Of a stretch of DNA of 64,000 nucleotides, positions 24,301-54,188 are shown piece after piece (position 1 is the stretch's first letter; each line of letters begins with the position of its first letter). The notes under the pieces were generated by a model. That model was not told the origin of the DNA, searched no databases, and was given only the letters and a program-made list of their open reading frames with translations. The DNA comes from Tubiluchus corallicola (Eukaryota > Priapulida > Priapulimorpha > Priapulimorphida > Tubiluchidae), in contig JAQGDQ010000423.1 of the NCBI GenBank assembly GCA_030141605.1, positions 136,390-200,389 of the forward strand, given 5' to 3'. The translations under genes were made by a program, and so were the position numbers.

Positions 24301-25438
24301 GAAACAGTAAAGGGCGCTATCACACTTTCGAACCGCCTACTTTTTTCTAGGTTATTACTCGTTTCTAGGATCCTAGGTCATTACTCTATTATTCTCCCAT
24401 CATCAGTGACAATCTCGTGTAATTTAGTCCTACATTTAGTGTATAATTAGAAATAATTACATACTGTTCACGGTTATACACTATACAGTTCTTATCGCCA
24501 TCATGTTTATGTGGGATAACATTATTAGTTTCGTATTAACTTGCGCATTATCAGCGCCTAACCTAAAAGACATTTAACACACTTTCATCTTTACCACATT
24601 TGCAAACCAAAGGCAAAACCTTTACTTTTATAATCTAATAATACTACAGTAATAAATAAAATTAATGATAAATAATTGTTGTTGCCTAAAAACAATTTCT
24701 TTGTGTATGTCAGTTCAGGTCTGACTACACACTGAAGGAGAAAGAAAGATTTCAAGAACTCTTTCCCTCAAGATGTCAGGACATTTGAAAAAACCGAACA
24801 CTTGCATACTTGCAGTCCCATATGCAATAAATGATTTTAAACTTTCCAAAAGAAAATCATAGTTCCTGAAGAATTGAAGAAGAATAACAAGAAGAACCAA
24901 AAGAAAAAAAACAATAGACAGACACAACAAGGACAAAAAAGAACAAGAACATGAAAAACAAGAAGAAAACATAGCTGAAAAATAAAAAGAAGAACAAATT
25001 AAGCGGACAGCCACACAGAACAAGAACAACAACAATAACAACAACAACACAACAAGAATGGAAACAAAAAGCAGAAGACAAAGAAAAAAGCTGAAAAAAA
25101 ATTGTGACTGATGGTAGTGATGATGGTGACAGTTGATGGTTTGATAGGTAGTGATGTTGTCGCTTGGTAATATTAATGAAAAATAGCTGGAACATACAGT
25201 AAAAATAAACATGCATATTTTTAATATTGAAAGCAATTTGTTTTTTTAATACAAGCTGACAAGCTAACAACTTAATGTACATGAAAAACAGATTTGCAGT
25301 CAATTTTGTAGGTCTGTAACTATTTGAAGGTTAAATAAATAAATAATGTATATAATAATATAATATAATACGACACAAACTCCGGTCGTTGCAACTCATA
25401 TTAATCGTAATTTTTTAAACTAAAAATACAGGTTAAAA
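21331..25438. other. Intergenic DNA between FNDC3 and SNRNP25
   Basis: 21850-22055 is a fragment of the CAGGGATGAG MITE family (CACAAGCTGACTGCTAGTTGG, GACAGTTTTTATATA). 24870-25110 is strongly purine-rich on the plus strand (AAGAAGAA, AACAAGAAC words), which creates Phe/Leu-rich minus frames of up to 173 codons that I reject as genes. Nothing else recognised. Confidence 0.55.
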
Positions 25439-25439
25439 G

Positions 25440-25514
25440 CCAAGTACTTCATTGTGCTATAGCGACTGCGCGTTAGTGTGTAAGACACAGTTTGTTTCTT
25501 GCGTGTTGGCAGCG
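25440..25514 (+). other. SNRNP25: Probable 5'UTR exon of SNRNP25
   Basis: A GC-richer stretch ends at CAGCG|GTAAGT (donor at 25515). The matching acceptor TTTTTTTCAG ends at 26356, followed by about 110 nt of leader and the SNRNP25 ATG. This gives an 842-bp 5'UTR intron. The transcription start is not visible. Inferred from splice consensus and position only. Confidence 0.5.
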
Positions 25515-25715
25515 GTAAGTAATGAATAATTTTAATTTGGAATTATAATGCCTACGATTCTATAATATTATGAGAATATGGTGCGTATTACGCCATGTTG
25601 GTATGCTTTACGGCCTACACGCGTAAAAACGAACAATAGGCTGGAAAAAAGTAGATGGTGCGAAAGTGTAATAGCGCCCAGTATAGACTTGGTCTGTTTA
25701 AGTGTTTCTTTACAT

Positions 25716-26200
25716 CAGGGGTGTGCAAATTATCTGACTAGCCGGGCCACATTAAACTTTCCCGCAATTCCTGCAGGCCACAGGCAGTTTTGATCAAGGA
25801 GCCAAGTACAGAAAGGCCTAATAATGAGTTTTTTTGCATCCGACCTGCATACATCATTACTACTACACTCAAGAAACTATTTTAGAAGTTATTAAAATTT
25901 ATATTACAAACCATATATTTCTACTTTCAGGAGAGATAGTGGTAATTTCATTACAATGCATATTAGTAATGTGTATCACGCAGTCTGTGTAGTACAGTGT
26001 TATTAAGCTACAACTGTCTTGTAAGGGTTAATGGTATCTGATCTAGTAGAAAAAACTACCTGCACTATCTTTGGGATCGTGGCACGGACTTCAGCTGGAT
26101 ACACTCAATTAATCTCCCGGGCCGCACTTTCATTAGGTTTGACAAATCTCTTCTCGGGCCGCACAAATTCTCTCAGCGGGCCGCAATTTGCACACCCCTT
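25716..26200 (-). mobile_element. hAT-like MITE in SNRNP25 5'UTR intron
   Basis: Ends CAGGGGTGTGCAAATT and AATTTGCACACCCCTT are inverted repeats. Flanks CTTTACAT (25708-25715) and GTTTACAT (26201-26208) are an 8-bp target duplication with one mismatch, typical of hAT elements. 485 bp, no transposase. Inverted relative to the copy at 41211-41725. Confidence 0.85.
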
Positions 26201-26467
26201 GTTTACATGGTCTCACCCTGCTGGAATCATGTTTTGCCATTTGTAATGATCCAGTGTCTCAGGGTTTTTAGGCCTGACATATTAACACTGATTTTAGCTG
26301 GTGACCATTGAACTATTTTTTATCAAATTATCTGAAAATTAATGAATTTTTTTCAGCTGTCCGAGGTGCATTTGTTATTGGTCTAGTAATTTAAATTAGA
26401 TAGCAACTGCCAACGATTAACAAGCAGAAACCAAGAGAATTATTAAACAGTGCATTTTACTAACATT

Positions 26468-26962
26468 ATGGATACAAGTGAGACAAAAAGCAATGTACCA
26501 GATGATGAAAATATGCCAGATGATGTTGACGATCAGATTCTGTCCCATCAAGAGGCAATGGAACGAATCAAAGAAGGTCTAGTGAAACTAACTCAAGATC
26601 CATTATTAAGTGACCTACCCGTAGATGTTACGTTAGAAGAAATAAATTCACAGATTGCTCTTGAATATGGTCAGTCGATGACGATAAACGTCCGGCGGGC
26701 GGACGACAAGTTGTATTCCGTAGTTGTTCCTCAAGCAGCTACAGTTAGGGATCTGAAGGCGGCGATTAAAAGACACGTTAATCTGAAACTATTCCGAGAT
26801 ACTTCTCGGCCACAGAAGCACATTAGTTGGAGGTACATATGGAGGACTTACTGGCTCCACTTTGATGGTCAGAAACTTACGGACGATAAAAAGCTAATCA
26901 AAGATTATGGAATCAGGAACAGAGACGAAGTGAAGTTTATAAAACGATTACAGCAAAAATAG
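26468..26962 (+). CDS. SNRNP25: U11/U12 snRNP 25 kDa protein (SNRNP25)
   Basis: 164 residues. The minor spliceosome uses this ubiquitin-like protein as part of the U11/U12 di-snRNP that recognises U12-type introns in the nucleus. Family blocks are clear: VTLEEINSQIALEYGQ (about 47-62), then ATVRDLKAAIKRHV, HISWRYIWRTYWL and, at the C-terminus, DYGIRNRDEVKFI. The acidic N-terminal extension (DDENMPDDVDDQ) is longer than in the ~132-residue human protein. The start is ATG 26468, with A at -3 and G at +4; frames extending upstream use non-ATG codons. The coding region has no intron, whereas vertebrate genes have several, so it is either a retrocopy or an intron-poor locus. An intact frame and a plausible spliced 5'UTR favour a working gene. 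A MITE begins 60 bp after the stop. Confidence 0.93.
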   Translation: MDTSETKSNVPDDENMPDDVDDQILSHQEAMERIKEGLVKLTQDPLLSDLPVDVTLEEINSQIALEYGQSMTINVRRADDKLYSVVVPQAATVRDLKAAIKRHVNLKLFRDTSRPQKHISWRYIWRTYWLHFDGQKLTDDKKLIKDYGIRNRDEVKFIKRLQQK

Positions 26963-27021
26963 TCGTACTTAATCATGATTGTGTTTGGCTAGTGATGGAC
27001 TAATTTTTGTGATGCAAAGTT

Positions 27022-27539
27022 CAGGGATGAGAATTTTCCGCGGATACGCGAAATTCCGAGTTTTTGGAAGACCAGTAGTGCCATTTTTGTAAATTGCGTA
27101 AATTCGTTTAGAAAATTTTTATGGACCCAGTACATTATTTCACAAGCTGACTGCTAGTTGGCAGGCCGTCACTTTGTTTACATCACGTACATCAGTGTAA
27201 CCACGTGTATATCTCTATGTATAAAAATATAGAATCAATTATGCAGAGTTATTTTAAGTCAATTGCAGACAGTTTTTATATACTTTTGCGGCCAGTACTT
27301 AGGCGTTTTTGAGACAATTAAGTATCATGTATCCTTGATAGTTGGGTATTTTAAATTATGCATGAAACAAAGTAACTGATATTTTAAGTCCACTTAGAGG
27401 CTCTCTATGGTCACAAAAATGCAATTTGTTGCTGGCTCCAAAGGGGTTTTGCCCCCCTTGAACCCCCATGGGGGCCTACGCCCCCCCCAAACCTCTGACC
27501 TGTTTCAGAGTTTTTTGCAATTTGTCATTCTCATCCCTG
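27022..27539 (+). mobile_element. MITE with CAGGGATGAGAAT ends, copy 1
   Basis: Left end CAGGGATGAGAATTTTCCGC, right end GTCATTCTCATCCCTG. Flanks AAAGTT on both sides (27016-27021 and 27540-27545) form a 6-bp target duplication. Copy 2 (39598-40116, inverted) has GTACTG/GTACAG, agreeing with 6 bp. Near the right end it holds a G/C-homopolymer-rich block (CCCCCATGGGGGCC). Superfamily not assigned. Confidence 0.85.
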
Positions 27540-27599
27540 AAAGTTCTGTGTTAAATGTAAGAAGTGTTTGTAGATGTGGCAAAAATCGTCCGATAGTCG

Positions 27600-28260
27600 G
27601 CAGTGACACTTGAACCCAGTAACTGTGCTTTACTTAAAGTATGTCCTACATCTATTACGCCTTACTTTCTAAATAATGCTCAAATAGCTGGAAAAAGTTG
27701 GATCAGAGACTTGGGAGTAATGATTTCTAATGACTTCAAATGGAATTCCCACGTGAATCATATCATTGCAAAAGCAAACTGTTGTATTGGCATGATTAAG
27801 CGGTGTGTGATATTGAGAAATGCGGCAGTAATTATTCCTCTCTATAAAGCTGTTGTTTGACCCATTCTGGAATATGAGTCGGTTGTATGGTCACCCCAGT
27901 ATGCTGCTTTCAAGAATGCTCTTGAAAGAACTCAGGATAGATGTACTCATCTTGCATTGATTTGGATCCCGCTTCAATTTCTACTCTTGAGCAAAGGCAT
28001 GAGACTGTAGACCTTGTGAAATGCTTCAGAATAATTAGTGGAAATACTGTACTGACTGAGGCAGACTTTTCCAGGCCTCACAGAGTTCTTCGTGGTCATG
28101 AGTCTGAGTTATTTGTACGACCAGCTAGAACCAACATCAGATCACATTTCTTTGGGCATCGTGTAGTTCAACCATCTTTCATCATCAACCATGAGTGCTT
28201 CATCAGCTGACAGTTTCAAAAGGCATATGAGAGAGGACCATTTATAGATAGTTATCATCT
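27600..28260 (+). pseudogene. CR1/Jockey-group LINE relic, reverse transcriptase C-terminal part
   Basis: Broken reading frames give IRDLGVMISNDFKWNSHVN, ANCCIGMIKRCVILRN, IPLYKAVV then, after a stop, PILEYESVVWSPQYAAFKN. A second frame gives VDLVKCFRIISG and RPARTNIRSHFFGHRVV. This order (DLGV...H, PLYK.LVRPILEY.SVVW, R.NIR..FF..RV) is the usual C-terminal end of Jockey/CR1-type LINE ORF2 proteins. Stops and frameshifts show it is dead. Endonuclease and catalytic RT motifs are absent (5' truncated). Confidence 0.85.
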
Positions 28261-29200
28261 AGGTCCTTATTTCTTTGGATAAAGTAATTCAGCTTTTCTA
28301 GTTATTCACATCCTGAATCTACAATTCATGAGGTTCATTTTGATACCAAGTTCATTGCTCTATGTTATTTCTAAGCTGAGATAATCTACGTTGAAGTTGA
28401 GGCGCAGGCTAAAAAAGCGTAACCTTGAGAAAATTGCTGCTAAAGTTAGCCATTGTTTTTTATTGCATTTCTACAAAACACTTAGCACCCGCACAAATTG
28501 TATACACGCACGAATGTGACCAATACACCTCTGTGGACACATAAGTGACACTTCCTCTGCCAGTATGATTTAGTAAGGTAGGCGAAGTACAGTGATTACA
28601 TTTTGTTAAGGGTTTTCTGTTTGTTAAATTTAATATAGCATTTTACAGTTACAAGTGGTGACATCTGGCTTCAATATTTGCATCCTAGTCAATTTTCGGT
28701 CATTCATGTTTCAATGTGTTCATGTGATGACGTGTTTCTGTGTAACTCACGATTTAATGCCAACGATGTATGTAAATTTTATTTAGTTATTTACTGTAAG
28801 TCTCTCATTAATTTCACTTAATCGTAATCGATCTTTTGATAAGAAATGAATTAGTTTATTAAAGGAATTTATATTTATCTTGTTTCAGTTAAAATGTATA
28901 ATTTTGGGTAATGGCGTCTCAGTGTCAGATATGAAGTAAATGACTAAGGGGCATGTGACGTGAAGATGGCATATAAACAATAAACTGTTATGCTGAGCAA
29001 AAATGATGACTTTGTTTGTCACTATAAAACCCAAACACCTTTTACAGTTCAAAAGGGAAATTACAAATTATTTGATGTAAAAACATTAATGCTGTTTTCT
29101 ACCTGAGATTTTAAATGTAATTCTTCTGTGACTGTCATTTTATTATGATTTGTGAAAAAAATCCGAGTCATCAGATATACTTGTGATGCGTTTCTTGCTA
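28261..29200. other. No recognisable feature
   Basis: AT-rich intergenic sequence after the LINE relic. No exon, RNA gene or transposon end seen. Confidence 0.5.
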
Positions 29201-29652
29201 CAATAAACTCTGCATAACTCATATCTAACCGGACCGTAAAAAAACTTTTTGACTCAGGCGATGTTAGACAGAGACAATGAATTCGAATACACAATGACAA
29301 TAGAGTGATTGTTTTCACGTCGCCGACTGAGACTCACAGAAAGATCAATCCAGGAGAAAATAATCGGGGGGGGGGGGCAGAACTTGTAAGCATTAGAAGT
29401 TTCCCGTATGACAATACTGTTTTTGAGTTGTACGAAAATTTTTATTTTTATTGAGTATAAATTGCATTTTTGAGTTAGGCGGAGTAAATTACATGTATTT
29501 TAATTAAATGGACCATAATTTTTTATTAGGTGAAATTTTGAGTTGTGTATTTTGCGTTAATCGATGTTTTATACTGGAAAAACGAAGGATTTCATCCGTT
29601 ATGCTGAAATTTTTTGAGTTAGGTGAAAATTTGAGTTACGCAGAGTTTATTG
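29201..29652 (+). mobile_element. Tc1/mariner-type MITE, copy 2
   Basis: Ends CAATAAACTCTGCATAACTC and GAGTTACGCAGAGTTTATTG, flanked by TA at 29199-29200 and 29653-29654. A G10 homopolymer lies near 29366. Same family as 17291-17749. Confidence 0.85.
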
Positions 29653-29929
29653 TATTTGTATTGGCTTAGCGTCTGAACTGTTAAATGAGACAGAATACTG
29701 GAGCATTTAGTTGAAGTACCATAGCAAGATTATGTGCTGACAGAATGCAAAAATATGTAACAAACAAGGGAATGGAGTTCATTTTTGTACATTGAGTGCT
29801 TATTGGAAAAGTATCCAGATTTATAGTAATTGTGATTGTAAACAGTCTAAAAATAGCTTGATTCATAGAAATAGAATTTCCCATTAAAGGAAAAGACTAG
29901 TCAGTTAACATGTTGAGTTTATAAACGCA

Positions 29930-30465
29930 AGTCACTTAAGATGTTGAGTTTATAAACGCAAGTCACTTAATACGTTGGGTTTATTTTACTGCTATCAGTT
30001 AAACTTAGAAAAAAATCTAACAAAGAAATTTGAAAAAACTGTCTATAAACCGTGAAGTTAATTTATACTACCGCTGTAGAGAAAGTGTGGTGGTAGCCGC
30101 CTTCACTTGAAAATTGTGACGTAACTGGTGGACTTTGTGACTTTTCGTAAGCGCGTCGTGGCTTTCCGTAAGCTCACCCTGCTGAAACTTATTAAAGCTT
30201 CTACAGCTTACCTAATGTTCATGTAAAAATATCACAAATTAGCTACTAATTTTTTGAATAACTTGTTATACTTTTGATGGAAGTTGACATTGCGCTGCTT
30301 TTCTTCAGTGACATCATTGATGGAAGATTGACATAAGTCTGTAGACTTGAATGACGTCATTGTTGGAAGGATGAGCATTCAAATTGGAGCACCCAAGCGT
30401 GAACTTAATGCGACTTTTTTTAAAATGATTTCAGTAATTAAACAAGGCGGATCTCACACTTCGCG
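29930..30465 (+). repeat. Dispersed repeat, copy 1 (one unit of the 34-bp motif)
   Basis: TTGGGTTTATTTTACTGCTATC, AACAAAGAAATTTG, GTGACTTTTCGTAAGCGCG and GGAGCACCCAAGC recur in order at 32945-33900. Here the segment GAAGTTGACATTGCGCTGC plus TTTTCTTCAGTGACATC occurs once, where copy 2 has a 34-bp array. A 44-bp direct duplication (GTTGAGTTTATAAACGCAAG) lies at 29910-29975. Confidence 0.8.
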
Positions 30466-30478
30466 CATTTTACTACTA

Positions 30479-30920
30479 CCGTATATACTCGCATATAAGC
30501 CGAATTTAGAACTATAAAATACAATACTGAAATCAGGGGGTCGGCTTATATGCGCATGAAACAAAATGAACACAAGGACAGACACTAATGCCAATTTTCC
30601 AGCCACACATTTTCATCGCTATCTGACTCTTTATTTGGTTGTGTGTCACCAGTGGTGTATTGGAGGGGGATCGTGGGGGATCGCCGTCCACCCACTTTTT
30701 TTAGAAAAAATTCACATTTCAATAAATGTCTGCTTTTTGTATTCATTAGATAAAAAATATTAAAAATGTATAAATATATGTGACAAAAAGGGATCAATTT
30801 TGTTGATTGGGTATGGAGTAAAATTAGACAAGTTGATGGTCGGCTTATATACAGGTTTTTGCAAAAACTGGCCATTTTAAAGCAGTTTTAGGGGGTCGGC
30901 TTATATGCGAGTATATACGG
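30479..30920 (+). mobile_element. MITE with CCGTATATACTCGCATATAA ends
   Basis: Left end CCGTATATACTCGCATATAA continuing GCCGA, right end TCGGCTTATATGCGAG then TATATACGG, near-perfect inverted repeats, flanked by TA at 30477-30478 and 30921-30922. TA flanks indicate a Tc1/mariner-type element. 442 bp, no transposase. Confidence 0.85.
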
Positions 30921-30929
30921 TAAGTCCTT

Positions 30930-32940
30930 ATCAGTTTTGCGAACATTGAACTAAGCCTAACTTTCTAGAAGGCTTGACTTTTCCTTTAAATTCTCAAAAA
31001 AAAACGCCGAAAAACGATATAATGTATATATTAATGTCTACATATCTATATTAATCCTATACACAATGCATAATATCATACATTTTCTAACTGCACAAAA
31101 GACTACGAATTTTCTTAGTTGCGTATATACATTTCATGCTCTAACAGGAATAATGTCAACAAAGTTTTTACAAATAAAATGTACAAGCATAATTCAACAA
31201 ACACAAAAAAAGTTCTAAAAAAACGACATCGCTCTTAATTCTTGTTGATGTTAAACATGGCGTCTAAAGATGGCATACGAGATGTTATTAGTTCTTGTAA
31301 CAGTGAAGCACAGTATGCGGTAATGTAAAATTTACATTAATCAGCAAAAGTAATGCACTTATTTGCAAGCCGATCCGAGTTTAAATGCATCAAAAACGAG
31401 TCCATTATAAGCTATGTGATATAAGTTAACATTATTAATGATTGAAGGTCACATATACAGTATAACAGCTAACAATACGAAACAGAAAAATAACCCGTAC
31501 ACACTACAAGCAGTATTTTACAAACATATCAAATCTTTATAACATTTTATTACATAAAGAATAAAGTGATTAAAGCTATCTTTTAGCACGGCGTAAGAGT
31601 TGGCTACAGTTCTCACGTTACACCAAGTAACATAGGAAACACTGAGACTACAATCTTACAAAATAAAAAAACATTCAAAATCTAATGCTACATAAGCAAA
31701 AAATAGTTGTTTTGTTGGTCTGTATGTGTAGCTACATACCTATACTTTAGCCCTTATCAACAACGGGCATATGGCAGTAAAAAATAATATTCTTCGAGCC
31801 CTAAGTTAACATCAACATAAAAAATATACAAGCTAGAAAATCTACTGGATGTATTGCTTAATACGAGGAACATTCTACCGACAACAGGTGTTATAATTAA
31901 TGTCATTAAGACGGCCAACACAATCATTACGCAGATTACAGTATATCTGATCTTCAATTAAATCTTATCGTTATGAAATTAATCATCATTAAAGACGACA
32001 GGAACTAATCAGTTTCGCAGTGAGCTCTATGATGTATACAGCAACATTTTCCATTGTAAAGTAGTCCTAGAGCTCACTGTGCCAACTGTCAAGCATAGTT
32101 TCGTAACATAGCAACACCTGTCCATTGGAGTTAGCAAGATACACTGACCAATTAATAAATCACTGACCAATTAATAAATATCTCTTCGACAAATATTTAT
32201 TACTAGTGTTACTTTAAACCAAACAAAACTGCATTACTGGATGCGAAATTTATCTACATTTTGTCAAATTTTTACATGGAACTTATAGTCAGTTAGTACT
32301 TAAGTATATGCATACTAACAAGCTATCAATTAAGTCAAGAAATTTAAGCTGTCAAGCAATTCCTTGAACTAAAGTCTGGCACACACACGCACTGCGTTTG
32401 ATATAATGCATGAAACGTGAAACACGTTTTAGCAAAAATTCCAAATAACTGCATGGAATTATTCACTTTTACAGCAGATGACGTAACTAATTCAGGAGCG
32501 TTAAGCGTTTACTGTATTTTAACAGGTTCATGAAAAACTGCTAAGCAACAATTATGTTATATTTGATATAAAGCACATACATACAGACTGGCCAAGGTGA
32601 ACAATACACAGGTGCAATGTAACGGGGAACGGCATGAATATTTAGTTAGTTTGGAAGCAATATTCTACATAATTTCTTGCGTAATGTCTTTCTTTTTAAC
32701 GTAATGTCATTTATAACATTTATTACATTTCATTAATATGTAGATTAAGAGGTATCATGTTCTTAATTGTCTTTACAATAATGTCTTAACAATTACTTAA
32801 ATTTTTCTACAGACAATAATACATTGCTGAACTGTTTCTATGCGCAATAATACATTGGTCAAATTTTTCTATGGACAATAATACATTGGTCAAATTTTTC
32901 TATGGACAATGAGATATTACTTAACGGAAAGAACAAACCA
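30930..32940. other. No recognisable feature
   Basis: AT-rich. 32815-32920 has about three 35-bp units of GACAATAATACATTGGTCAA. ACTGACCAATTAATAAAT is duplicated at 32140-32178. No coding exon with family resemblance found on either strand. Confidence 0.5.
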
Positions 32941-33339
32941 TACTGTATGTTGGGTTTATTCTACTGTTATCACTTAAACTTGAGTTGTGACTCACTTAAA
33001 CTTACAAAAATCTAACAAAGAAATTTGCAAAGAACTGCCTTTAAAGCATAAATTTAAAACATACTACCGCTGAATAGAAATTTTCAGGCTCGGTGAGTGC
33101 TGCCATTCACTTGAAAGTTATGATGTAACTGGGAGACTTCGTGACTTTTCGTAAGCGCGTTGTAGCTTTCTGTAAGCGCACAGTATGATGTAACTGGGAG
33201 ACTTTGTGACTTTCCGTAAGCGCTCGCTGCTTAAACTAATTCAAACTTCTGCAATTTACCTAACATTCACTCAAAAATATTACATAACTAGTTATTTAAT
33301 TTTTTGTAAAAGCTTATTATACTTTTGATGAAGATTGAC

Positions 33340-34212: not shown

Positions 34213-34348
34213 TTACACGAATTTATAAACTTCAACGACTTTTGTACAGAAATCACTTCCTGTGCAAAGGGGTGGATTCCCAAATGTATCACAGCCTTCG
34301 GTCCTTCCGTGATCTAACAGCTCTCCAAAATAGATGCCTTGTCCTCTC
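34213..34348 (-). CDS. TBC1D24: TBC1D24 last coding exon, end of TLDc domain
   Basis: Acceptor TTTCATAG ends at 34349. The exon enters in phase 2, completing the Gly of MGGG, and reads RGQGIYFGELLDHGRTEGC, DTFGNPPLC, TGSDFCTKVVEVYKFV and stop TAA (34213-34215). The G-L/IY-(D)-L..GRT..C.TF.NPPLC pattern and the final EVY-F strand are the canonical end of TLDc domains (human TBC1D24: LNRGRTSHCDTFNNQPLC). The open frame is too short to stand out on its own; identification rests on family match and phase agreement. Confidence 0.93.
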
Positions 34349-36424: not shown

Positions 36425-37373
36425 CGACTAGAAATCACACAAGAGCTACTCACCCTCCTCCCATAGTAATCATACTATGATCAGCTGACATAAACATTGA
36501 GCACCCGTGTCCCATCTCACCGGTCGTCAGACCCACCCACGACTAGAAATCACACAAGAGTTACTCACCCTCCTCCCATAGTAATCATACTATGATCAGC
36601 TGACATAAACATTGAGCACCCGTGTCCCATCTCACCGGTCGTCAGACCCACCCACGACTAGAAATCACACAAGAGTTACTCACCCTCCTCCCATAGTAAT
36701 CATACTATGATCAGCTGACATAAACATTGAGCACCCGTGTCCCATCTCACCGGTCGTCAGACCCACCCACGATTAGAAATTACACAAGAGTTACTCACCC
36801 TCCTCCCATAGTAATCATACTATGATCAGCTGACATAAACATTGAGCACCCGTGTCCCATCTCACCGGTCGTCAGACCCACCCACGATTAGAAATTACAC
36901 AAGAGTTACTCACCCTCCTCCCATAGTAATCATACTATGATCAGCTGACATAAACATTGAGCACCCGTGTCCCATCTCACCGGTCGTCAGGCCCACCCAC
37001 GATTAGAAATCACACAAGAGCTACTCACCCTCCTCCCATAGTAATCATACTCTGATCAGCTGACATAAACATTGAGCACCCGTGACCCATCTCACCGGTC
37101 GTCAGGCCCACCCACGCCTAGAAATCACAGAAGAGCTACTCACCCTCCTCCCATAGTAATCATACTATGATCAGCTGACATAAACATTGAGCACCCGTGT
37201 CCCATCTCACCGGTCGTCAGGCCCACCCACGACTAGAAATCACACAAGAGCTACTCACCCTCCTCCCATAGTAATCATACTATGATCAGCTGACATAAAC
37301 ATTGAGCACCCGTGTCCCATCTCACCGGTCGTCAGGCCCACCCACGACTAGAAATCACACAAGAGCTACTCAC
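36425..37373 (-). repeat. 115-bp array of TLDc exon 3' end plus splice donor, eight extra copies
   Basis: Each unit on the minus strand is GTGAGTAGCTCTTGTGTGAT then TTCTAG (26 nt), followed by an 89-nt copy of the end of the TBC1D24 exon at 37374-37579 (SWVGLTTGEMGHG, CSMFMSADHSMITMGG). Unit starts 36425, 36540, 36655 and so on every 115 bp. Copies differ mostly at third codon positions (GGT/GGA, GGT/GGC); one has CAT to CAG. The donor GTGAGT is kept in all; the AG before the copy is kept in five of eight (TAA in the other three). Confidence 0.93.
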
Positions 37374-37579
37374 CCTCCTCCCATAGTAATCATACTATGA
37401 TCGGCTGACATAAACATTGAGCACCCGTGACCCATCTCACCGGTCGTCAGGCCCACCCACGCATACTTCTCCGATTTCGGCCAAACCGTAAAAATGAACG
37501 ACTCTCCGGTGCCAAAATACGTACGAGGATCGTGCCGATGGCGGTCGTCCCAGTCTGTGGAACAGTAAGCACCGAATAT
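37374..37579 (-). CDS. TBC1D24: TBC1D24 exon, core of TLDc domain
   Basis: Acceptor TTTTTGTACACAG, donor GGAGG|GTGAGT. Phase 0 in, phase 2 out, 68 codons. Reads IFGAYCSTDWDDRHRH, YFGTGESFIFTVWPKSE, KYAWVGLTTGEMGHG and CSMFMSADHSMITMGG. GAY.ST.W, FGTGE.F.F, the aromatic YxWVG and the SMFM...GGG strand are the diagnostic core of TLDc in TBC1D24/Skywalker. Its 3' 89 nt and donor have been copied eight times into the following intron, so the true donor is followed immediately by decoys. Using any distal donor would read into TGA directly after GGAGGG. Confidence 0.94.
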
Positions 37580-40149: not shown

Positions 40150-40308
40150 CTCGTTAGTTGCCGTTTTAATGAGAATCAACGTGGGTTCGTGACCGTCAAC
40201 TTTGTCAAAAAACGTCGTGATGCTGGTGCCGTGCTCCTCCGTGGTGAAGATGAGTTCGGGTTCGAATATGGTCATGCGAGCGGGTAACCAATGCCACACC
40301 AGATGCAA
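40150..40308 (-). CDS. TBC1D24: TBC1D24 exon, start of TLDc domain
   Basis: 53 codons, phase 0 at both ends. Acceptor ATTATTTGCAG, donor GAG|GTAACG (GTAAC at 40145-40149). Reads LHLVWHWLPARMTIFEP, ELIFTTEEHGTSITTFFDK and VDGHEPTLILIKTATNE, matching W.W.P.R and GHEPTLLLIKT of human TBC1D24. Joins the next exon as TNE|IFGAY, as in the family (KEVCGAY). Joining the previous exon directly (TGQ|LHLVWHW) agrees with the family (REM|RDIWSW-like) and phase. The acceptor region with its first coding bases is tandemly copied upstream in the intron. Confidence 0.94.
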
Positions 40309-40462
40309 CTGCAAATAATGTCAAGATTGAACCAGATGCAACTGGAAATAATGTCAAGATTGAACCAGATGCAACTGGAAATAATGTCAAGATTGAACCA
40401 GGTGCAACTGGAAATAATGTCAAGATTGAACCAGATGCAACTGGAAATAATGTCAAGATTGA
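40299..40462 (-). repeat. 33-bp array of a splice acceptor, about five units
   Basis: On the minus strand each unit reads CTTGACATTATTTCCAG followed by TTGCATCTGGTTCAAT: a branch-point-like CTTGAC, a short pyrimidine tract, CAG, and the first ten bases of the exon. The exon-proximal unit has GCAG and runs on into the real exon. If a distal copy were used, the main frame would meet TGA after six codons. Confidence 0.9.
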
Positions 40463-40521
40463 AAAGTTAAGCACCAACATCAGTAAAAAGCAAGCATGTT
40501 TGATATATAGCGTTCATAGTA

Positions 40522-40965
40522 GAATAAACTTTGCATAACTCAAATCTAAAAAAACGAAAAAAGCTTTTGAGTCCGGCGATGTTGACCATTTTCCAACGTA
40601 GAAAACTCTAAACCCCTCCTCCAGATGGCGAGCGAAATAGACGGTAGAAAGTCAGCCCTTCTATACGTAAATGTTGAGATTTGATGAGAATTACATAAAG
40701 AATAACAAATTATGCAGTGAAACATGATTTTTATGTTACAAAACGACACATACACAACACTGTTAGTCAAAATGACAACAGGGATAGAGTATAAAGTGTA
40801 TTTTTGAGTTAGGCGAAGTAAATTACACATATTTTGATTAAATGGACCATAATTTTTTATTTGAGTCAGGTGAAATTTTGAGTTAAACTGTGTTTTTTGT
40901 GGGAAAAACAAAGGAACTAAAATTCATTGAGTTATGTGAAAATTTGAGTTACGCAAATATAATAA
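40522..40965 (+). mobile_element. Tc1/mariner-type MITE, copy 3
   Basis: GAATAAACTTTGCATAACTC at the left, GAGTTACGCAAATATAATAA at the degraded right end, TA flanks at 40520-40521 and 40966-40967. Same family as 17291-17749 and 29201-29652. In the TBC1D24 8.6-kb intron. Confidence 0.75.
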
Positions 40966-41210
40966 TACTATAAAAGAAATAGTTAGCAGAACTAGTTATC
41001 CTTGGTCACCTATCTAAGCACAAAGCGTGACCACTCGATTATTTCTCTTACCCCAATAGATAGGAATCTGGAAGCATAAGGACAATGTATAATATTATGC
41101 AATATTAGCTTTTTGATAACAGTCGAAACTTCATTATATGCAGTGAAGAATTTTCACTAATTTTGACAATAATGCTTTCAATCATTCACTTTAATCTGAT
41201 TCTTCTAAAT

Positions 41211-41725
41211 CAGGGGTGTGCAAATTGCAGCCCGCGGGCCACTTGCGGCCCACCGAGAGAATTTGTGTGGTCAGCGACGAGATTTGTCAACCTAATGAAA
41301 GTGCGGCCCGGGCGATTAATTGAGTGTATCCAGCTGAAGTCCGTGCCACGATCCCAAAGATTCTAGTAGATCGGATGCCATTAACCCTTACAAGACGGTT
41401 GTCGCTTAATAACACTGTACAACACAGACTGTGTGATACACATTACTAATATGCATTGTAATGAAATTACCACTATCTGTCCTGAAAGTAGAAATATATG
41501 GTTTGTAATGTAAATTTTAATAACGTCTAAAATAGTTTCTTGAGTGTAGTAGTAATGATGTACGCAGGTCGGATGCAAAAAAATCATTATTAGACCTTTC
41601 TGTACTTGGCTCCTTGATCAAACTGCCTGTGGCCCACAGGAATTGTGGGAAAGTTTAATGTGGCCCACAGGAATTGTGGGAAAGTTTAATGTGGCCCGGC
41701 TAGTCAGATAATTTGCACACCCCTG
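41211..41725 (+). mobile_element. hAT-like MITE with CAGGGGTGTGCAAA ends, copy 2
   Basis: Ends CAGGGGTGTGCAAATTGC and ATAATTTGCACACCCCTG. 8-bp flanks TTCTAAAT (41203-41210) and TGCTAAAT (41726-41733) differ at one base. A 31-bp internal direct duplication (GGCCCACAGGAATTGTGGG) lies at 41629-41692. Inverted relative to 25716-26200. Confidence 0.87.
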
Positions 41726-41967
41726 TGCTAAATTCAATGGAAAACAGCGTCATAGCTCAAAAAAGTAAAAATACGTTTTCTACAGCAATAAAACAACTGA
41801 AAAAAGTCAAACCAATCACAGTATTTACAGTAAGTATGATGAAAAAGAAAAACAATGGCAAGTCAGAGTGATGCTGATCCCAGCTCAGCTTCCATGCAAG
41901 GTAAACATTCAATAAAACAGGTAGCAATTAACACAGTAGCACAATATTACTAAATCCATGCTAAAGA

Positions 41968-42378
41968 CAGGGTTCCCACGATCAGGGAAAATCCTGGAAA
42001 ATTCTTGAAAATACAGGCTATCCTAGAAAGTCAGGGAAAAGATAATTTGATAAAAAGTTGGGAAAAATGATGAAAATGGGACGAAAAATCAGGGAAATTG
42101 GAAAGGGTTGCAAAAATAATCACAGTGAATCGATAATTTTCCAAACGTATTTTTCAGTGATTCGTGTTAGAACAAAATCTTGCTATGGCAGGTTCCCAGT
42201 TTCGATTTCTATTCCAAAAATAGTGATTGGATTAAGAAAGTTATGTATCTGTATGTCTATGAATGACACAAAAATGTCTGTATATTTCTGCAATTCGTGC
42301 TTATCCTGGTCATGGAAAATCAATATTTGGTCAGGGAAAAGTCAGGGAAATTTATTTTAAAATTGCGTGCGAACCCTG
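41968..42378 (+). mobile_element. Possible hAT-like MITE with CAGGGTTCCCACG end
   Basis: Left end CAGGGTTCCCACGATCAGGG, right end GCGTGCGAACCCTG, an imperfect inverted pair. Internal TCAGGGAAAA words recur. No clear target duplication (GCTAAAGA against TACAGATC), so the ends may be imprecise. The plus frame at 42058-42360 lies inside it and is not a gene. Confidence 0.55.
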
Positions 42379-42557
42379 TACAGATCAAGAAACTCCGGAA
42401 TGAACACCATTACAGCTATGTACTAGCTATACACCATCTCAGCATTAAGTAAACTCAATTTTTACACCATTAAATATTTACATCAGAAACATACTAACTA
42501 ATCATATTTACGTAACGATTCCACACTAAACATTTTCCTAAATGTCTTTAATACAAT
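42379..42557. other. TBC1D24 intron spacer
   Basis: AT-rich spacer between two MITEs. Nothing recognised. Confidence 0.4.
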
Positions 42558-43072
42558 AAGCCTTTCACAGTTCCAGCGATTGATGATGATCGTGAAAAGG
42601 TCAAAGGTTAAAGGTTAAGTGTACTACACAACACATTTGTATACGCTTTACAACGCCTCCCAGCCCAAGCTATTGCAATGGTAACACTTCTAACGTGTTT
42701 TAACAGCTAGCTAGAACCTTACCTAGTTCATTTTTACTTGTTTTCAAGCTAGATCCTGCTAGTAAATCACTCTACGCACAGACTAATGCATTATTACGTA
42801 AAGTCCACGTAAAACAACTGATTTTACTGAAGTGATGCGGCGCAGACAGCTTTGCTTTACACACTTGTCATGTGACGGTTGTTGTTAAGACTCGTTGCTG
42901 TGGTACACTTAACCTTTGACCTAAACAACTGATGTTGCTAAAGTGATGAGGCAGACAGCTTTGCTTTACACACTTGTCATGTGACGGTTGTTGTTGAGAC
43001 TCATTGCTGTGGTACGCTTAACCTTTGACCTACAGCAACTGTGCGTGCGCACAACAAAACTGTGAAAGGGCT
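42558..43072 (+). mobile_element. MITE with TTTCACAGTT ends, copy in TBC1D24 intron
   Basis: AAGCCTTTCACAGTTCCAGC at the left and CAAAACTGTGAAAGGGCTT at the right. Internal GCTTTACACACTTGTCATGT block is duplicated (about 42850 and 42960). Same family as in the palindrome arms. Confidence 0.65.
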
Positions 43073-43506
43073 TATTTCCAACGTAACACAATCATTAGTA
43101 CTCGGATAAATATGCAAAAACTGGTAAGGAAATTCTGCAAATGCAACAAAAACAATGTGGATAAAACCAATGCAATTTGGACAACGAAAAAGTTGCACAA
43201 AATGTTGCACAATTTAACTCTAACTGCCACTATCAACTAATTGATTGTTTTTGAGTGAAAATATTGGTTAATCTGTTCTTCAAAGCGGTGAAAAAGAGCA
43301 TAACTCATATTAAACATAAAAGCATTCGAACAGAGGTAGAGGGAGCCATGCGTGTTGAGCTGACTTACTTGTTCTGACGTCACTACCAATGATTTCACAT
43401 AGTTCAGAACTAAGAAACCAGCTGAGTGCGACCTTTGATATATCATCTGTCAGCATTCAATAATACAATAAGAATTATCTGCATATTTTAAACTTATGCA
43501 TTTCAG

Positions 43507-44126
43507 CAGAGGCGTAGCAAAGTGGGGGGCGACAGGGGGGCAATGATTATAGAGGGCACGAAATTCTTATAGAGTTCAATGACTGTTAATTATTAATTAC
43601 TAATCCGACATTAACACAACAGTTAACAAAAGTATTCAAACTACAACAAAATTGCCTAGTCAGAGATCATTGTAGCTGATTTAATTACTACCTACAGCCT
43701 AGAAAAAAGGCTAATGTTGTTACTTAACATTGTGTGCAGGGTGTGGGGGTGTGACTTAGCAGATTTTTGGGAGAAACAGTGACGTTTCTCTAAATGCTGA
43801 TTGTATTATTGTGAAAACCTCTAGTGTTCTGTATCTTTCATAACCTTTGCAAGTTCTAATGTTGGAGCTGAATGTCTAGCTACTGTCGTGATACGAACAG
43901 CTTTTCCCATAGAAGACAGTTATTCTAGTGCAATACTGCTAATCAAACTCCGGGCGATTCTTACAAAAAAATTGTTTATCTTTGTCCCATCATGTTAAAA
44001 TAGGAAAGTTGGTTCATGGACGCAAAAAACACGCAAAATTTATGGATTCACCCACAAAGTAAATGAACAAAACATCACCGGAAGCTTTCCTGCCCCCGGG
44101 GACCACAAACACTTGTTACGCCACTG
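43507..44126 (+). mobile_element. hAT-like MITE with CAGAGGCGTAGC ends, copy 2
   Basis: CAGAGGCGTAGCAAAGTGGG to CTTGTTACGCCACTG. 8-bp flanks CATTTCAG (43499-43506) and CATTTCAC (44127-44134) differ at one base. 620 bp, no transposase. This is the best-preserved copy of the family here. Confidence 0.85.
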
Positions 44127-44311
44127 CATTTCACACTAGACATGATATTCATATTTTAAACAGAATTCAGATTTGCTGATTGGTTCAAGCTAACCTTGTA
44201 AAAAGTAGGTTCAATGTCATAACATATTGATTAAAAATGTTATTGCATGTGAAGCATAAGTGTCACGAATTTTGTGGAGTGAATGTGCAACTAGCCCTAC
44301 AAACACAGTAC

Positions 44312-47300
44312 TTATTACAGTGCATTGGCAGTACTTATTACAGTGCATTAGCAGTACTTATTACAGTGCATTGGTAGTACTTATTACAGTGCATTGGCAG
44401 TACTTATTACAGTGCATTGGCAGTACTTATTACAGTGCATTGGCAGTACTTATTACAGTGCATTGGCAGTACTTATTACAGTGCATTGGTAGTACTTATT
44501 ACAGTGCATTGGCAGTACTTATTACAGTGCATTGGCAGCACATATTACAGTGCATTGGCAGTACTTATTACAGTGCATTGGCAGCACATATTACAGTGCA
44601 TTGGCAGTACTTATTACAGTGCATTGGCAGTACTTATTACAGTGCATTAGCAGTACTTATTACAGTGCATTGGTAGTACTTATTACAGTGCATTGGCAGT
44701 ACTTATTACAGTGCATTGGCAGTACTTATTACAGTGCATTGGTAGTACTTATTACAGTGCATTGGCAGTACTTATTACAGTGCATTGGCAGCACATATTA
44801 CAGTGCATTGGCAGTACTTATTACAGTGCATTGGCAGCACATATTACAGTGCATTGGCAGTACTTATTACAGTGCATTGGCAGTACTTATTACAGTGCAT
44901 TGGCAGCACATATTACAGTGCATTGGCAGCACATATTACAGTGCATTGGCAGTACTTATTACAGTGCATTGGCAGCACATATTACAGTGCATTGGCAGTA
45001 CTTATTACAGTGCATTGGCAGCACATATTACAGTGCATTGGCAGTACTTATTACAGTGCATTGGCAGTACTTATTACAGTGCATTGGTAGTACTTATTAC
45101 AGTGCATTGGCAGTACTTATTACAGTGCATTGGCAGCACATATTACAGTGCATTGGCAGTACTTATTACAGTGCATTGGCAGTACTTATTACAGTGCATT
45201 GGCAGTACTTATTACAGTGCATTGGTAGTACTTATTACAGTGCATTGGCAGTACTTATAACAGTGCATTGCCAGTACTTATTACAGTGCATTGCCAGTAC
45301 TTATTACAGTGCATTGCCAGTACTTATTACAGTGCATTGGCAGTACTTATTACAGTGCATTGGCAGTACTTATTACAGTGCATTGGCAGCACATATTACA
45401 GTGCATTGGCAGTACTTATTACAGTGCATTGCCAGTACTTATTACAGTGCATTGCCAGTACTTATTACAGTGCATTGGCAGTACTTATTACAGTGCATTG
45501 GCAGTACTTATTACAGTGCATTGGCAGCACATATTACAGTGCATTGGCAGTACTTATTACAGTCCATTGGCAGTACTTATTACAGTGCATTGGCAGTACT
45601 TATTACAGTGCATTGGCAGCACATATTACAGTGCATTGGCAGTACTTATTACAGTGCATTGGCAGTACTTATTACAGTCCATTGGCAGTACTTATTACAG
45701 TGCATTGGCAGTACTTATTACAGTGCATTGGCAGCACATATTACAGTGCATTGGCAGTACTTATTACAGTGCATTGCCAGTACTTATTACAGTGCATTGG
45801 CAGCACATATTACAGTGCATTGGTAGTACTTATTACAGTGCATTGGCAGTACTTATTACAGTGCATTGGCAGCACATATTACAGTGCATTGGTAGTACTT
45901 ATTACAGTGCATTGGCAGTACTTATTACAGTGCATTGGCAGTACTTATTACAGTGCATTGGTAGTACTTATTACAGTGCATTGGCAGTACTTATTACAGT
46001 GCATTGGCAGCACATATTACAGTGCATTGGCAGTACTTATTACAGTGCATTGGCAGTACTTATTACAGTGCATTGGCAGTACTTATTACAGTGCATTGGT
46101 AGTACTTATTACAGTGCATTGGCAGTACTTATAACAGTGCATTGCCAGTACTTATTACAGTGCATTGCCAGTACTTATTACAGTGCATTGGCAGTACTTA
46201 TTACAGTGCATTGGCAGTACTTATTACAGTGCATTGGCAGTACTTATTACAGTGCATTGGCAGTACTTATTACAGTGCATTGGCAGCACATATTACAGTG
46301 CATTGGCAGTACTTATTACAGTGCATTGCCAGTACTTATTACAGTGCATTGCCAGTACTTATTACAGTGCATTGGCAGTACTTATTACAGTGCATTGGCA
46401 GTACTTATTACAGTGCATTGGCAGCACATATTACAGTGCATTGGCAGTACTTATTACAGTCCATTGGCAGTACTTATTACAGTGCATTGGCAGTACTTAT
46501 TACAGTGCATTGGCAGCACATATTACAGTGCATTGGCAGTACTTATTACAGTGCATTGGCAGTACTTATTACAGTCCATTGGCAGTACTTATTACAGTGC
46601 ATTGGCAGTACTTATTACAGTGCATTGGCAGCACATATTACAGTGCATTGGCAGTACTTATTACAGTGCATTGCCAGTACTTATTACAGTGCATTGGCAG
46701 CACATATTACAGTGCATTGGCAGTACTTATTACAGTCCATTGGCAGTACTTATTACAGTGCATTGGCAGTACTTATTACAGTGCATTGGCAGTACTTATT
46801 ACAGTGCATTGGTAGTACTTATTACAGTGCATTGGCAGTACTTATTACAGTGCATTGGCAGCACATATTACAGTGCATTGGCAGTACTTATTACAGTGCA
46901 TTGGCAGTACTTATTACAGTGCATTGGTAGTACTTATTACAGTGCATTGGCAGTACTTATAACAGTGCATTGCCAGTACTTATTACAGTGCATTGCCAGT
47001 ACTTATTACAGTGCATTGCCAGTACTTATTACAGTGCATTGGCAGTACTTATTACAGTGCATTGGCAGTACTTATTACAGTGCATTGCCAGTACTTATTA
47101 CAGTGCATTGCCAGTACTTATTACAGTGCATTGGCAGAACTTATTACAGTCCATTGGCAGTACTTATTACAGTGCATTGGCAGTACTTATTACAGTGCAT
47201 TGGCAGTACTTATTACAGTGCATTGGTAGTACTTATTACAGTGCATTGGCAGAACTTATTACAGTCCATTGGCAGTACTTATTACAGTGCATTGCCAGTA

Positions 47301-47940
47301 CTTATTACAGTGCATTGGCAGTACTTATTACAGTGCATTAGCAGTACTTATTACAGTGCATTGCCAGTACTTATTACAGTGCATTGGCAGTACTTATTAC
47401 AGTCCATTGGCAGTACTTATTACAGTGCATTGGCAGTACTTATTACAGTGCATTGGCAGTATTTATGACAGTGCATTGGTAGTACTTATTACAGTGCATT
47501 GGCAGTACTTATTACAGTGCATTGGCAGTACTTATTACAGTGCATTGCCAGTACTTATTACAGTGCATTGCCAGTACTTATTACAGTGCATTGGCAGAAC
47601 TTATTACAGTCCATTGGCAGTACTTATTACAGTGCATTGGCAGTACTTATTACAGTGCATTGGTAGTACTTATTACAGTGCATTGGCAGTACTTATTACA
47701 GTGCATTGGCAGCACATATTACAGTGCATTGGCAGTACTTATTACAGTGCATTGGCAGTACTTATTACAGTGCATTGGCAGTACTTATTTCAGTGCAATG
47801 GCAGTACTTATTACAGTGCATTGGCAGTGCTTATTACAGTGCATTGGCAGTATTTATGACAGTGCATTGGTAGTACTTATTACAGTGCATTGGCAGTACT
47901 TATTACAGTGCATTGGCACTACTTATTACAGTGCATTGGT
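44312..47940 (+). repeat. 23-bp minisatellite, about 158 units, 3.6 kb
   Basis: Unit CAGTACTTATTACAGTGCATTGG with variants CAGCACATATT, GTAGTACTT, ATTGCCAGT and CAGTCCATT. The rare variant ATAACAG recurs at 45257, 46131 and 46959, i.e. every 38 then 36 units, showing a higher-order repeat of about 830-870 bp. No unit has a stop in any plus frame, so all three stay open (up to 725 codons) and predict a repeated LITVHWQYLLQCIGSTYYSA. This is not a gene: it lies antisense inside a TBC1D24 intron with no start, signal or family match. Confidence 0.97.
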
Positions 47941-48951
47941 GCACATACCTCACAAGTGTGCATCTAATATGTCCAAGTACAAGTTACATGTAATTCTAAA
48001 GTTATTATCATTATTATATTACTGAGCAATAATAATCACGTGAAAATAAGGCCAGAATTAAAGTGATAAGGGACCAGGTGACTCAGTTCAGAAATTGCTA
48101 AGCAGTTGATGTTATTATTTTCGTTGCAACATGAAGTTACCAATAAATTGTTACCCCAACAGGAAAGTGGGTGACATATGACAACTTCCGCTCAAAGTGT
48201 CGGTACTACAAGAAAATAATCGCATTGGCAAATGCATCAAGTAAGTTTTTGGTAAAACTAATTTTCACATTAATAGTAACTGTAACATGAAGTAAAATGA
48301 CTTTTTATTTCACATTAATAGTAACTGTAACTGCAAGTAAAATGACTGGTTTTATTTCACGTTAATACAGTAGTGTGCATGCGGCCACGTAAACATGCAC
48401 GAAATAGGAAGCTGCACTCTAAGTAGAGAAAGCACTGTCACTCACACAGTGCCGACGTTGTTGTACAAGTGTAAAAGGCGGTGTTTGTTTTTGACTAAAT
48501 TTTCTTTCTATAAGTTTGTATCATTTTGTAGTGTGCATGCGGCCATGTAAACATGTCCGAGATAGGAAACTGCACTCTAAGTAGAAAAAGCACTGTCACT
48601 CACACAGTGCCGACGTTGTTCTACAAGTGTAAGGCGGTATTTTTTTGACTAAATTTCGTTTTTATAAGTTTGTATCATTTTACACAATATTAAAACAACG
48701 GCTAAAAATGGAAGACTTAATAAAAAATTCCAAAATAAAGAAATTGAATAAGACGTGGCTGGTTAAAGTATGACGTCTTTCTAATTTCTCCATTCTGAGA
48801 TTTTTTATTAATTCAGTTTTACGTTCACAAGCAAATGGCAGATGTTTGATTTTCCAGAAAATTTAGTGCCACACAAAAAAACCCACAAACCAAAACATCA
48901 CCAAAGTGTGCAACGGTCACCATGGTAACGATATCAGTACTAGTCAATTAC
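47941..48951. other. TBC1D24 intron with a 158-bp duplication
   Basis: 48371-48528 and 48529-48686 are tandem copies (TAGTGTGCATGCGGCCA, AAGCACTGTCACTCACACAG). 48265-48350 holds a ~55-bp duplication (CACATTAATAGTAACTGTAA). A candidate plus-strand exon is listed separately. Confidence 0.6.
48163..48240 (+). CDS. Candidate plus-strand exon, unidentified
   Basis: A 78-nt segment bounded by TTACCCCAACAG and ATCAA|GTAAGTTTTT is open in one frame and reads KWVTYDNFRSKCRYYKKII then ALANAS. Composition looks protein-like and the donor is strong, but I recognise no family and found no partner exon. It would be a nested gene on the strand opposite TBC1D24. The minus strand of the same stretch also has a weak acceptor/donor pair, so chance is possible. 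Confidence 0.25.
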
Positions 48952-49167
48952 CTGTCCGGTTAAGTGGCCAGCCGTGTTCGCGGCCAAACGGTCGTAGGAC
49001 GGAGACACTTTCATGTTCAGGTCCAAGGACGACCGGCGCTGATGACCGTGCATTCCTCCGCCGGAAGTGATGTCGGCGATGTTCTGCTCGCTGCGGATGA
49101 ACATCTCGTTTCTCAGCAGCATCCGGTTAATCTCCTTCCTCCGCAAACCACGAATTCCGAATGACGT
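48952..49167 (-). CDS. TBC1D24: TBC1D24 exon, end of TBC domain and linker
   Basis: 72 codons, phase 0 at both ends. Acceptor TTTTTTTGCTCAG, donor ACAG|GTAATT. Starts TSFGIRGLRRKEINRMLL, matching human AFAIRLFSRKEIQLL, then RNEMFIRSEQNIADI and a family-specific linker GGGMHGHQRRSSLDL and SYDRLAANTAGHLTGQ. RRSSLD is a possible phosphorylation site. The linker is longer than in human and joins directly to the TLDc start. Confidence 0.92.
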
Positions 49168-50065
49168 CTGAGCAAAAAAAGCATGTTAGATAAATGTAAT
49201 TGTAGTGGGTGCATAGGCCCTTTTTTTGGTTTTAATTTAGTTTTCAATTACTGCCATGGTGCTGCCACCTGTTTGTTTATTTAGTAAGCTTTTTACCTTT
49301 TACACTAGTCACTCTTTTAAAATTGAAGCACCTAATATCCTTCAATACATTGGGCCTTTCGTGAGCTATAGCTGTAGTAGTTGTCTGACATTTTACCCGT
49401 CTTTTGGTTCTCTCCGCCATTGCTCTATTTTTATGACTGTGATGAGCATTATGACTGTGAATTTCTTACGAGTTTATTGTTGTGACATTGTTGTTCTTAA
49501 GGTTACTTGGAGTTCTCATTCCTGTCTTTGTAACTGTTAAAGGCTCTAACAACGTAAGTTATTGTTAATTAAGTTCAATATAGTTTACATAATTTTTATA
49601 TCAGTGCTTGGTTATAGCAATAGATTTAACATGCAACTAATTTTCTTCTACTCAATGCAAGTTAAACTAAATGTTAATAATTGTCTTTCAGAATAAAGAA
49701 ACTTTTGGTCAACACGTCAAACTGGTGTTTTGTATCCATTTCAGTAATAAACCACCCCGGGGGCGGGGGGTTGGGTTAAAAAGTTTAGGCTCCTCAAAAA
49801 ACAACAAAATTTCACTCACTTTAACTATGTTAAAACTCAGGGTCGATGCTAGGAAGAGAGGGGCCCAATTAGAAAATTGTTAGTGGGGCCCTTGTTGCAC
49901 AAAAGACGAAGATTTTGTAGTACTTTTTACAGTACTTCAAAATGTGATGTGATATGAAAAATCATTCAGTTTTCCTTTACACATATGTATGTATAACAGC
50001 AGCAAAATAAAATTACTGACCAAAAAGTTTCACAACGCCGCCAATAGAGGGCAGCAAAAGCTTAC
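49168..50065. other. TBC1D24 intron, nothing recognised
   Basis: About 900 bp of AT-rich intron with a G-rich patch (CCGGGGGCGGGGGG, about 49758-49771). The plus frames are unsupported. Confidence 0.5.
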
Positions 50066-50172
50066 TTTCAAGAGTTTGTCAACCGGAATTCTAATGTTCT
50101 GGCAGAAGGCCGATATTGCTTCGTGCAGTTCTCTTCCCGTTTCATCCTCAAAGTGGCCAGAATGTCTCTTTC
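50066..50172 (-). CDS. TBC1D24: TBC1D24 exon, TBC domain helix
   Basis: 107 nt, entering with two bases that complete the preceding Gly codon and leaving in phase 0. Acceptor TTTATTTTTCCAG, donor TTGAAA|GTAAGC. Reads KRHSGHFEDETGRELHEAI then SAFCQNIRIPVDKLLK, matching human SVQQDIRTFVRDIAKTVSPE then KLLE. Confidence 0.92.
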
Positions 50173-50243
50173 CTGGAAAAATAAAGGAGTGAAAACTGAG
50201 TAGTTGTAGTGGTGACACTGCAAGACAGTTTCTTTTAAATTAC

Positions 50244-50853: not shown

Positions 50854-51112
50854 CTGAAATGCATAAGTTTAAAATATGCAGATAATTCTTATTGTATTAT
50901 TGAATGCTGACAGATGATATATCAAAGGTCGCTACGATGATCTCAGACTACGCAATTTTGTTCTAGTTTGAAAACGTGCGTTAACTGCTAATGTTGGGTT
51001 AGTAATTAATATTTAACAGTCATAGAACACTAGAAGAACTTTACACCCTTGCACCCGGGGGCGATTGCCCCCCTGTCGACCCCCACCTTGCCACGCCTCT
51101 GCAAATTATCAA
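50854..51112 (-). repeat. Copied flank and second, partial CAGAGGCGTAGC MITE
   Basis: 50854-50935 matches 43430-43506 inverted. 50936-51112 repeats the final part of the MITE (CTACGATGATCTCAGACTAC to ACCTTGCCACGCCTCTG). This makes a partial tandem of copy 3. Confidence 0.7.
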
Positions 51113-51236
51113 ATAACAATATATTATGGTTGCAATGTTAGTCATTGATCGTCTACGATGTTTAAGCAACTCACAGAAAATTCTGATCTTCTTGTAAATT
51201 GTCATTTCATAGATAAAATATTTGACAATATGACGT

Positions 51237-54078: not shown

Positions 54079-54188
54079 TTGAAAACCGATCGTGTAAACG
54101 GAACATTAGAGATTTGATTTTAATTTCTTATCACTTTTTTCTGAAAATTCTAACAAACTAAAAAAACCAAAAAACCATTTCATTTTAC

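Follow-up and report, generated by a model that had tools for sequence, protein, structure and literature searches.

In genes with tandem mutually exclusive exons of the Dscam type, several exon-like copies follow each other in tandem downstream of a parent exon. Minisatellites that span exon-intron boundaries are described in amphioxus under the name of 'mirages', where they are found in the genes of Adh3, the globins BflGb6 and BflGb9, troponin C and PGBD5 and where they are reported to leave splicing undisturbed, the precedents being globin, Adh and troponin C genes (PMC3087553, PMC3902484), with PGBD5 added and troponin C cited by PMC3902484. The reported arrays reside on either the donor or the acceptor side, with units of 10-72 and 150-160 bp. 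In human genes located in segmental duplications, internal tandem repeats at exon-intron boundaries are reported to be capable of forming new introns and alternative transcripts (PMC2812944), and introns are known to have been gained by tandem duplication, as in the potato RdRp case and the multiple 24-bp duplications in fission yeast cited in the same account (PMC4974935). In a literature search with thin coverage of subscription journals, boundary-spanning minisatellites under this name turned up in amphioxus only, and none were reported outside cephalochordates.

The array that is the subject of this study resides in a gene orthologous to TBC1D24/Skywalker, which extends on the minus strand of the window, the entire stretch of 64,000 nucleotides of priapulid DNA analysed here. 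Upon joining, the three exons around the array encode a TLDc domain (PF07534, 4.6e-31), with the Skywalker TLDc domain as nearest solved structure (6r82, 3.2e-60). Among 26 hits obtained from 59 candidates, the top protein match is a TBC1D24-like protein of Priapulus caudatus, with 73% identity across the whole domain, the next matches being at 50%. Alignment of this protein to the window yielded eight exons spanning 55252 to 34213, whose 15 GT or AG borders were then chosen by hand:

55146 to 55252, minus strand: earliest coding exon recognised in the window, from about Priapulus residue 100 on
54189 to 54302, minus strand: coding exon
53093 to 53180, minus strand: coding exon
50066 to 50172, minus strand: coding exon
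48952 to 49167, minus strand: coding exon, linker before TLDc
40150 to 40308, minus strand: upstream TLDc exon
37374 to 37579, minus strand: parent TLDc exon of 206 nt, entered in phase 0 and left in phase 2, donor GTGAGT from 37373, 70% identical to residues 359-428 of the Priapulus caudatus protein
34213 to 34348, minus strand: last coding exon, containing the stop codon

Of the seven introns, the shortest measures 843 nt. The parent exon extends from CACAG to GAGG|GTGAGT, and its entry in phase 0 and exit in phase 2, together with the end of the upstream exon at 40150 and the start of the last exon at 34348, are as an earlier note on this DNA had described them. The five exons upstream of the TLDc region align with the Priapulus protein, which carries PF00566, from about residue 100. 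A Pfam scan of the three minus-strand frames of 40310-54850 detected no family, the TBC domain included, perhaps as a consequence of the shortness of the exons; their assignment rests on the protein alignment. The 5' end of the gene (residues 1-99) was not found in the window, at whose end the contig stops, and a match to residues 20-113 of the Priapulus protein is located on contig C1683. A region of the 14-kb contig C1225 (133-3282) is 94% identical to 55105-57608 of the window, which includes the first TBC1D24 exon region, and contains a fold-back inversion; it may represent a second haplotype or else be chimeric. Within its 8.6-kb intron, the gene harbours a minisatellite of 23 bp with 158 copies at 44306-47939.

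Directly after the parent exon, within an intron of 3,025 nt, the end of this exon is repeated in tandem:

36425 to 37461, minus strand: 115-bp tandem array of nine units, defined by repeat search, unit comparison and shuffles
37259 to 37347, minus strand: copy 1, of 89 nt, with its acceptor TTTCTAG retained
37144 to 37232, minus strand: copy 2, AG kept
37029 to 37117, minus strand: copy 3, AG kept; starts with GCG and carries CAT to CAG (H to Q)
36914 to 37002, minus strand: copy 4, AG lost (TAA)
36799 to 36887, minus strand: copy 5, AG lost (TAA)
36684 to 36772, minus strand: copy 6, AG lost (TAA)
36569 to 36657, minus strand: copy 7, AG kept
36454 to 36542, minus strand: copy 8, AG kept

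Tandem Repeats Finder reports a period of 115 bp with 9.0 copies, 98% matches, 0% indels and a score of 1941, thus confirming the eight intronic copies, inclusive of the donor, that had been noticed before, to which the exon's own end adds a ninth unit. In dinucleotide-preserving shuffles of the window, arrays of any kind appeared in 4 of 20 cases, with a top score of 68. The spacing between the starts of the nine units (37459, 37344 ... 36539) is exactly 115 bp, and with the first copy as reference, the eight other units show 96.5-99.1% identity. The first unit is the parent exon's own end, and each of the nine units carries the last 86 nt of the exon followed by the donor GTGAGT, which in all eight copies is intact and identical to the real one. 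The earlier claim that the repeated part comprises the 3' 89 nt of the exon thus holds for 86 nt, the remaining TCG of a copy originating from the tail of the intron, where the parent has GCG. The same note had counted five copies retaining the acceptor AG, as is the case for copies 1, 2, 3, 7 and 8 with TTTCTAG, whereas copies 4, 5 and 6 read TTTCTAA. The copies extend from 37347 to 36454, with 26 nt separating the donor of one from the AG of the next. Within the window, the unit is present in this array alone; the locus has a single match in the 343.5-Mb assembly (2,344 contigs), where a search for a second haplotype of the array found none.

The comparison with described systems places this array closest to the mirages. 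Its units span an exon-intron boundary, since they combine 86 exonic nt with the donor and the beginning of the intron, and its copies are located in the intron adjoining the genuine boundary, with the parent exon end as their first unit. In structure, as judged from the sequence, this array and the other junction arrays described below are of the mirage type. Common to the reported amphioxus cases and the array are the minisatellite-like tandem copies of a boundary, the presence of many copies with AG/GT signals and variants that are distributed in common blocks. Unlike those cases, the array is found outside chordates, and it contains more units of higher uniformity than the reported BflGb6 arrays, which consist of 6 and 3 units with 81-100% identity. 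It represents a known kind of element, apparently in a new phylum. With the human internal repeats (PMC2812944), it shares the location of a minisatellite at a splice junction; the new introns and alternative transcripts to which such repeats can give rise are reported for the human cases. Similarly, it shares with the intron gain described for potato RdRp (PMC4974935) a tandem duplication carrying splice signals but differs by the position of its copies within an existing intron. We consider the array, with a probability of roughly 90%, to be a passive minisatellite of the mirage kind that spans a 5' splice junction.

The sequence at both ends of the array suggests how such a minisatellite might have originated. 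Past the last unit, the intron reads TTTCTAGTCGATATTG, and ahead of the repeated part, the exon reads GTATGCGTGGG, with CG common to both. The array would have started with a tandem duplication by which TTTCTAGTCG, an end of the intron, was placed next to the exon immediately ahead of TGGGTGG. Common to both ends of the duplication would have been CG, perhaps TCG, which we infer to be sufficient for a microhomology-mediated event. A serine is found at the relevant codon in Priapulus and in seven of the eight copies, and as a guess, TCG may have stood in the ancestral exon, thereby providing one more shared base. The duplicated unit would have comprised 86 exonic nt along with the donor and the initial 29 nt of intron sequence, with CG counted once, and would then have expanded to nine units by either unequal exchange or replication slippage. 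In the ordinary transcript, splicing would be expected to proceed from the first donor, at 37373, so that the eight copies would be removed with the intron.

The variation among the copies is consistent with such growth. Variants occur in blocks along the array, as seen for position 8 of the intron (GGGGAAAAG) and for codon 4 (CCCCCTTTT), and the change from AG to AA is common to the three neighbouring copies 4, 5 and 6. This pattern is expected if neighbouring units are copied together and fits expansion by unequal exchange or replication slippage. The earlier description of the differences as mostly synonymous finds weak backing, since among the eight copies, two of the four variable exonic sites are silent and two replacing (P = 0.22), and since upon inclusion of the parent, the silent fraction is three of five compared to 23% expected (P = 0.08). 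Neither value amounts to significant evidence of a functional signal in synonymous changes. Among the copies, 4 of 89 exonic but 4 of 26 intronic positions are variable (Fisher P = 0.08; 0.12 with the parent), a difference short of significance, and this lower exonic variation could hint at constraint, which, together with the intactness of all eight copy donors, is a point against a passive array.

The reading as a minisatellite that happened to capture a splice junction, one of two options offered in the earlier note, is supported by further arrays at junctions, one in the same gene and others in two other genes. The first of these is situated at the upstream TLDc exon:

40298 to 40463, minus strand: second junction array, 33 bp with five copies, containing the acceptor and the first approximately 10 nt of the 40308 exon, found by repeat search

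Splicing at any of its four upstream acceptors would read into a TGA. In a second TLDc gene (contig C967:51501-55500), an array of 38 bp with 19.7 copies carries the exon end and donor (GCTGGAGA|GTAAGT), and a repeat of 92 bp with 1.9 copies carries the acceptor and the start of the last exon. By eye, the TLDc intron of this gene is located within one codon of the one in TBC1D24. The third gene contains a kinase exon (contig C1769:91815-92445), whose end and donor are part of an array of 71 bp with 3.0 copies.

The frequency of such overlaps is about that expected by chance. Minisatellites with a period of 20 or more account for 28.8% of the window (18,417 of 64,000 bases, 37 loci) and for 13.4% of the stretches from 17 other contigs (18,376 of 137,197 bases). 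In the TBC1D24 gene, 2 of the 15 splice sites are found in arrays compared to 4.8 expected given that arrays cover 31.9% of the span of the gene, with a binomial that is rough owing to the clumping of arrays, and exon bases are depleted of array sequence (99 of 1,133 compared to 6,603 of 19,907 in introns). Outside this gene, 39 exon matches were sampled, with an edge defined as the end of a profile match within 15 bp, which is not a proven splice site, and with arrays counted from a period of 20 and a score of 50 upwards. For TBC domains, the first 26 of 37 matches were reduced by six (five that were long, plus a single member of a mirrored pair) to 20; for kinases, the first 12 of 140 listed matches with a span of at most 250 bp and an open frame of at most 200 aa were used; for TLD, 7 of 9 matches, those outside the contig of the window, were included; AAA matches were left out. 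Flanks of 400 bp were counted for TBC and TLD matches and of 200 bp for kinases. A mirrored pair of TBC matches is found on contig C1234. In this sample, 3 of 78 edges are in arrays at a flank coverage of 5.4% (1,422 of 26,400; binomial P = 0.80), with 0 of 40 for TBC-domain exons, 1 of 10 and 0 of 14 for kinases and 2 of 14 for other TLD matches, both on C967. Neither comparison, 2 of 15 sites against 4.8 expected or 3 of 78 edges against 5.4% coverage, shows an enrichment of arrays at splice sites. A point against the passive reading is the absence of array-borne edges for the 20 TBC-domain exons at a flank coverage of 3.4%, in light of which the occurrence of a pair of junction arrays in both TLDc genes may exceed chance. 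Overall, junction arrays recur about as often as chance overlap would predict, in a small sample that would be compatible with a mild preference, and are concentrated in the two TLDc genes.

This concentration bears on a role of the array as a splice switch, which we regard as improbable. Here, nine identical strong donors would compete, and the length of the array would set the amount of full-length TBC1D24, with more copies resulting in less full-length protein; donor and acceptor arrays in each of two TLDc genes would in this case constitute a shared mode of control. Such lowering or tuning of expression would fit the intact donors of all eight copies and the fact that all eight products of alternative donor use, which would retain part of the array, terminate immediately behind the exon at one TGA that overlaps the donor (GGG TGA). 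In the upstream exon, use of the four additional acceptors leads to a TGA as well. However, the stop after the donor results from GG|GTGA in this phase regardless of the array, amphioxus mirages are reported without disturbance of splicing and we find no sign of selection.

The other option offered in the earlier note, a young array of alternative TLDc exons, is very unlikely. It would require that the parent is skipped and that the 40150 exon is joined to one copy and from there to the exon at 34348, resulting in a shortened TLDc protein. In its favour, five of the eight copies combine an AG with GTGAGT in the correct phase, the copy donor is identical to the real one and, if the loss of AG is ignored, all eight translate through to the normal C-terminus. 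The shortened protein is still recognised by Pfam as TLD, with 65 bits compared to a cut-off of 24.5, in two stretches. The frame is indeed maintained as had been claimed, but among the combinations tried, only in case of a single copy replacing the parent (206 nt to 89 nt); the addition of one, two or three copies to the parent leads to a stop, as does the use of copies 7 and 8 without it. The phase match itself, which had been pointed out before, is not telling: owing to the register that a copy shares with the exon, four of eight AGs in each unit are phase-compatible, and two of these give an open frame.

The single-copy product would be devoid of 39 residues, corresponding to 360-398 of the Priapulus protein, which include 11 of the 20 residues that are invariant across 22 aligned homologues (22 of the 26 protein hits, with P0004, P0005, P0006 and P0011 omitted as near repeats). 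The lost segment is retained in all 22, with gaps in four of them (three of one residue and one, in P0026, of eight). The modelled structure of the Priapulus protein (mean pLDDT 74.9, pTM 0.54, with residues 376-381 below 50) places the strands 360-365 and 387-392, most of 396-399 and the helix 369-374 in this stretch. The product would most likely be misfolded, although its two halves still match the TLD profile. Moreover, three of the eight copies lack the AG, introns between copies would measure 26 nt compared to 843 nt for the smallest in the gene, the variation of copies displays no significant coding constraint and the AG-bearing copies encode the same peptide except for copy 3, so that there is little diversity to gain from their alternative use. 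While the tandem arrangement of exon-like copies downstream of a parent is also found in exons of the Dscam type, the copies described here are partial (86 of 206 nt), near-identical and not interchangeable with the parent, being short of a whole exon by 39 residues with 11 of the 20 invariant ones. Use as cassette exons was thus rejected as the main reading, though not as a rare event, on the grounds of frame, conserved residues and AG loss.

An error of the assembly, in either the copy number or the array itself, is the least plausible explanation, since the units contain distinct variants in ordered blocks, are confined to this array within the window and match one locus in 343.5 Mb, despite odd features such as the large inverted duplication within 82-12213 and the fold-back on contig C1225, and despite the reported misassembly of one amphioxus mirage in its draft genome (PMC3087553/PMC3902484).

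With the array regarded as a passive mirage, its interest relates to the phylum and to the number of such arrays rather than to a new system of splicing. The occurrence of several mirages in a minisatellite-rich priapulid genome suggests that their cause is a high content of minisatellites and not a peculiarity of cephalochordates. Minisatellites spanning boundaries supply raw material from which new exons and introns can arise; for annotation, they are traps, with each copy resembling an exon.

Elsewhere in the window, the minisatellite-rich inverted duplication at 82-12213 pairs 82-2325 with 9959-12213 and 2196-4526 with 7756-10139, and the arms of these two longest pieces are 97-99% identical; it is either a real palindrome or an artefact of assembly or amplification. 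Pfam scans of the minus strand of 40310-54850 and 12300-18130 and of both strands of 19000-33300 detected nothing beyond a ubiquitin-like domain (PF18036) in an open reading frame at 26447-26962 on the plus strand, which we take to be SNRNP25-like. An exon at 18128-18715 on the minus strand presumably resembles the N-terminus of FNDC3. Finally, a 29-bp array at 62935-64000 contains TTAGGG-like sequence (GGTTAGGGC), reaches the end of the contig and is telomere-like.
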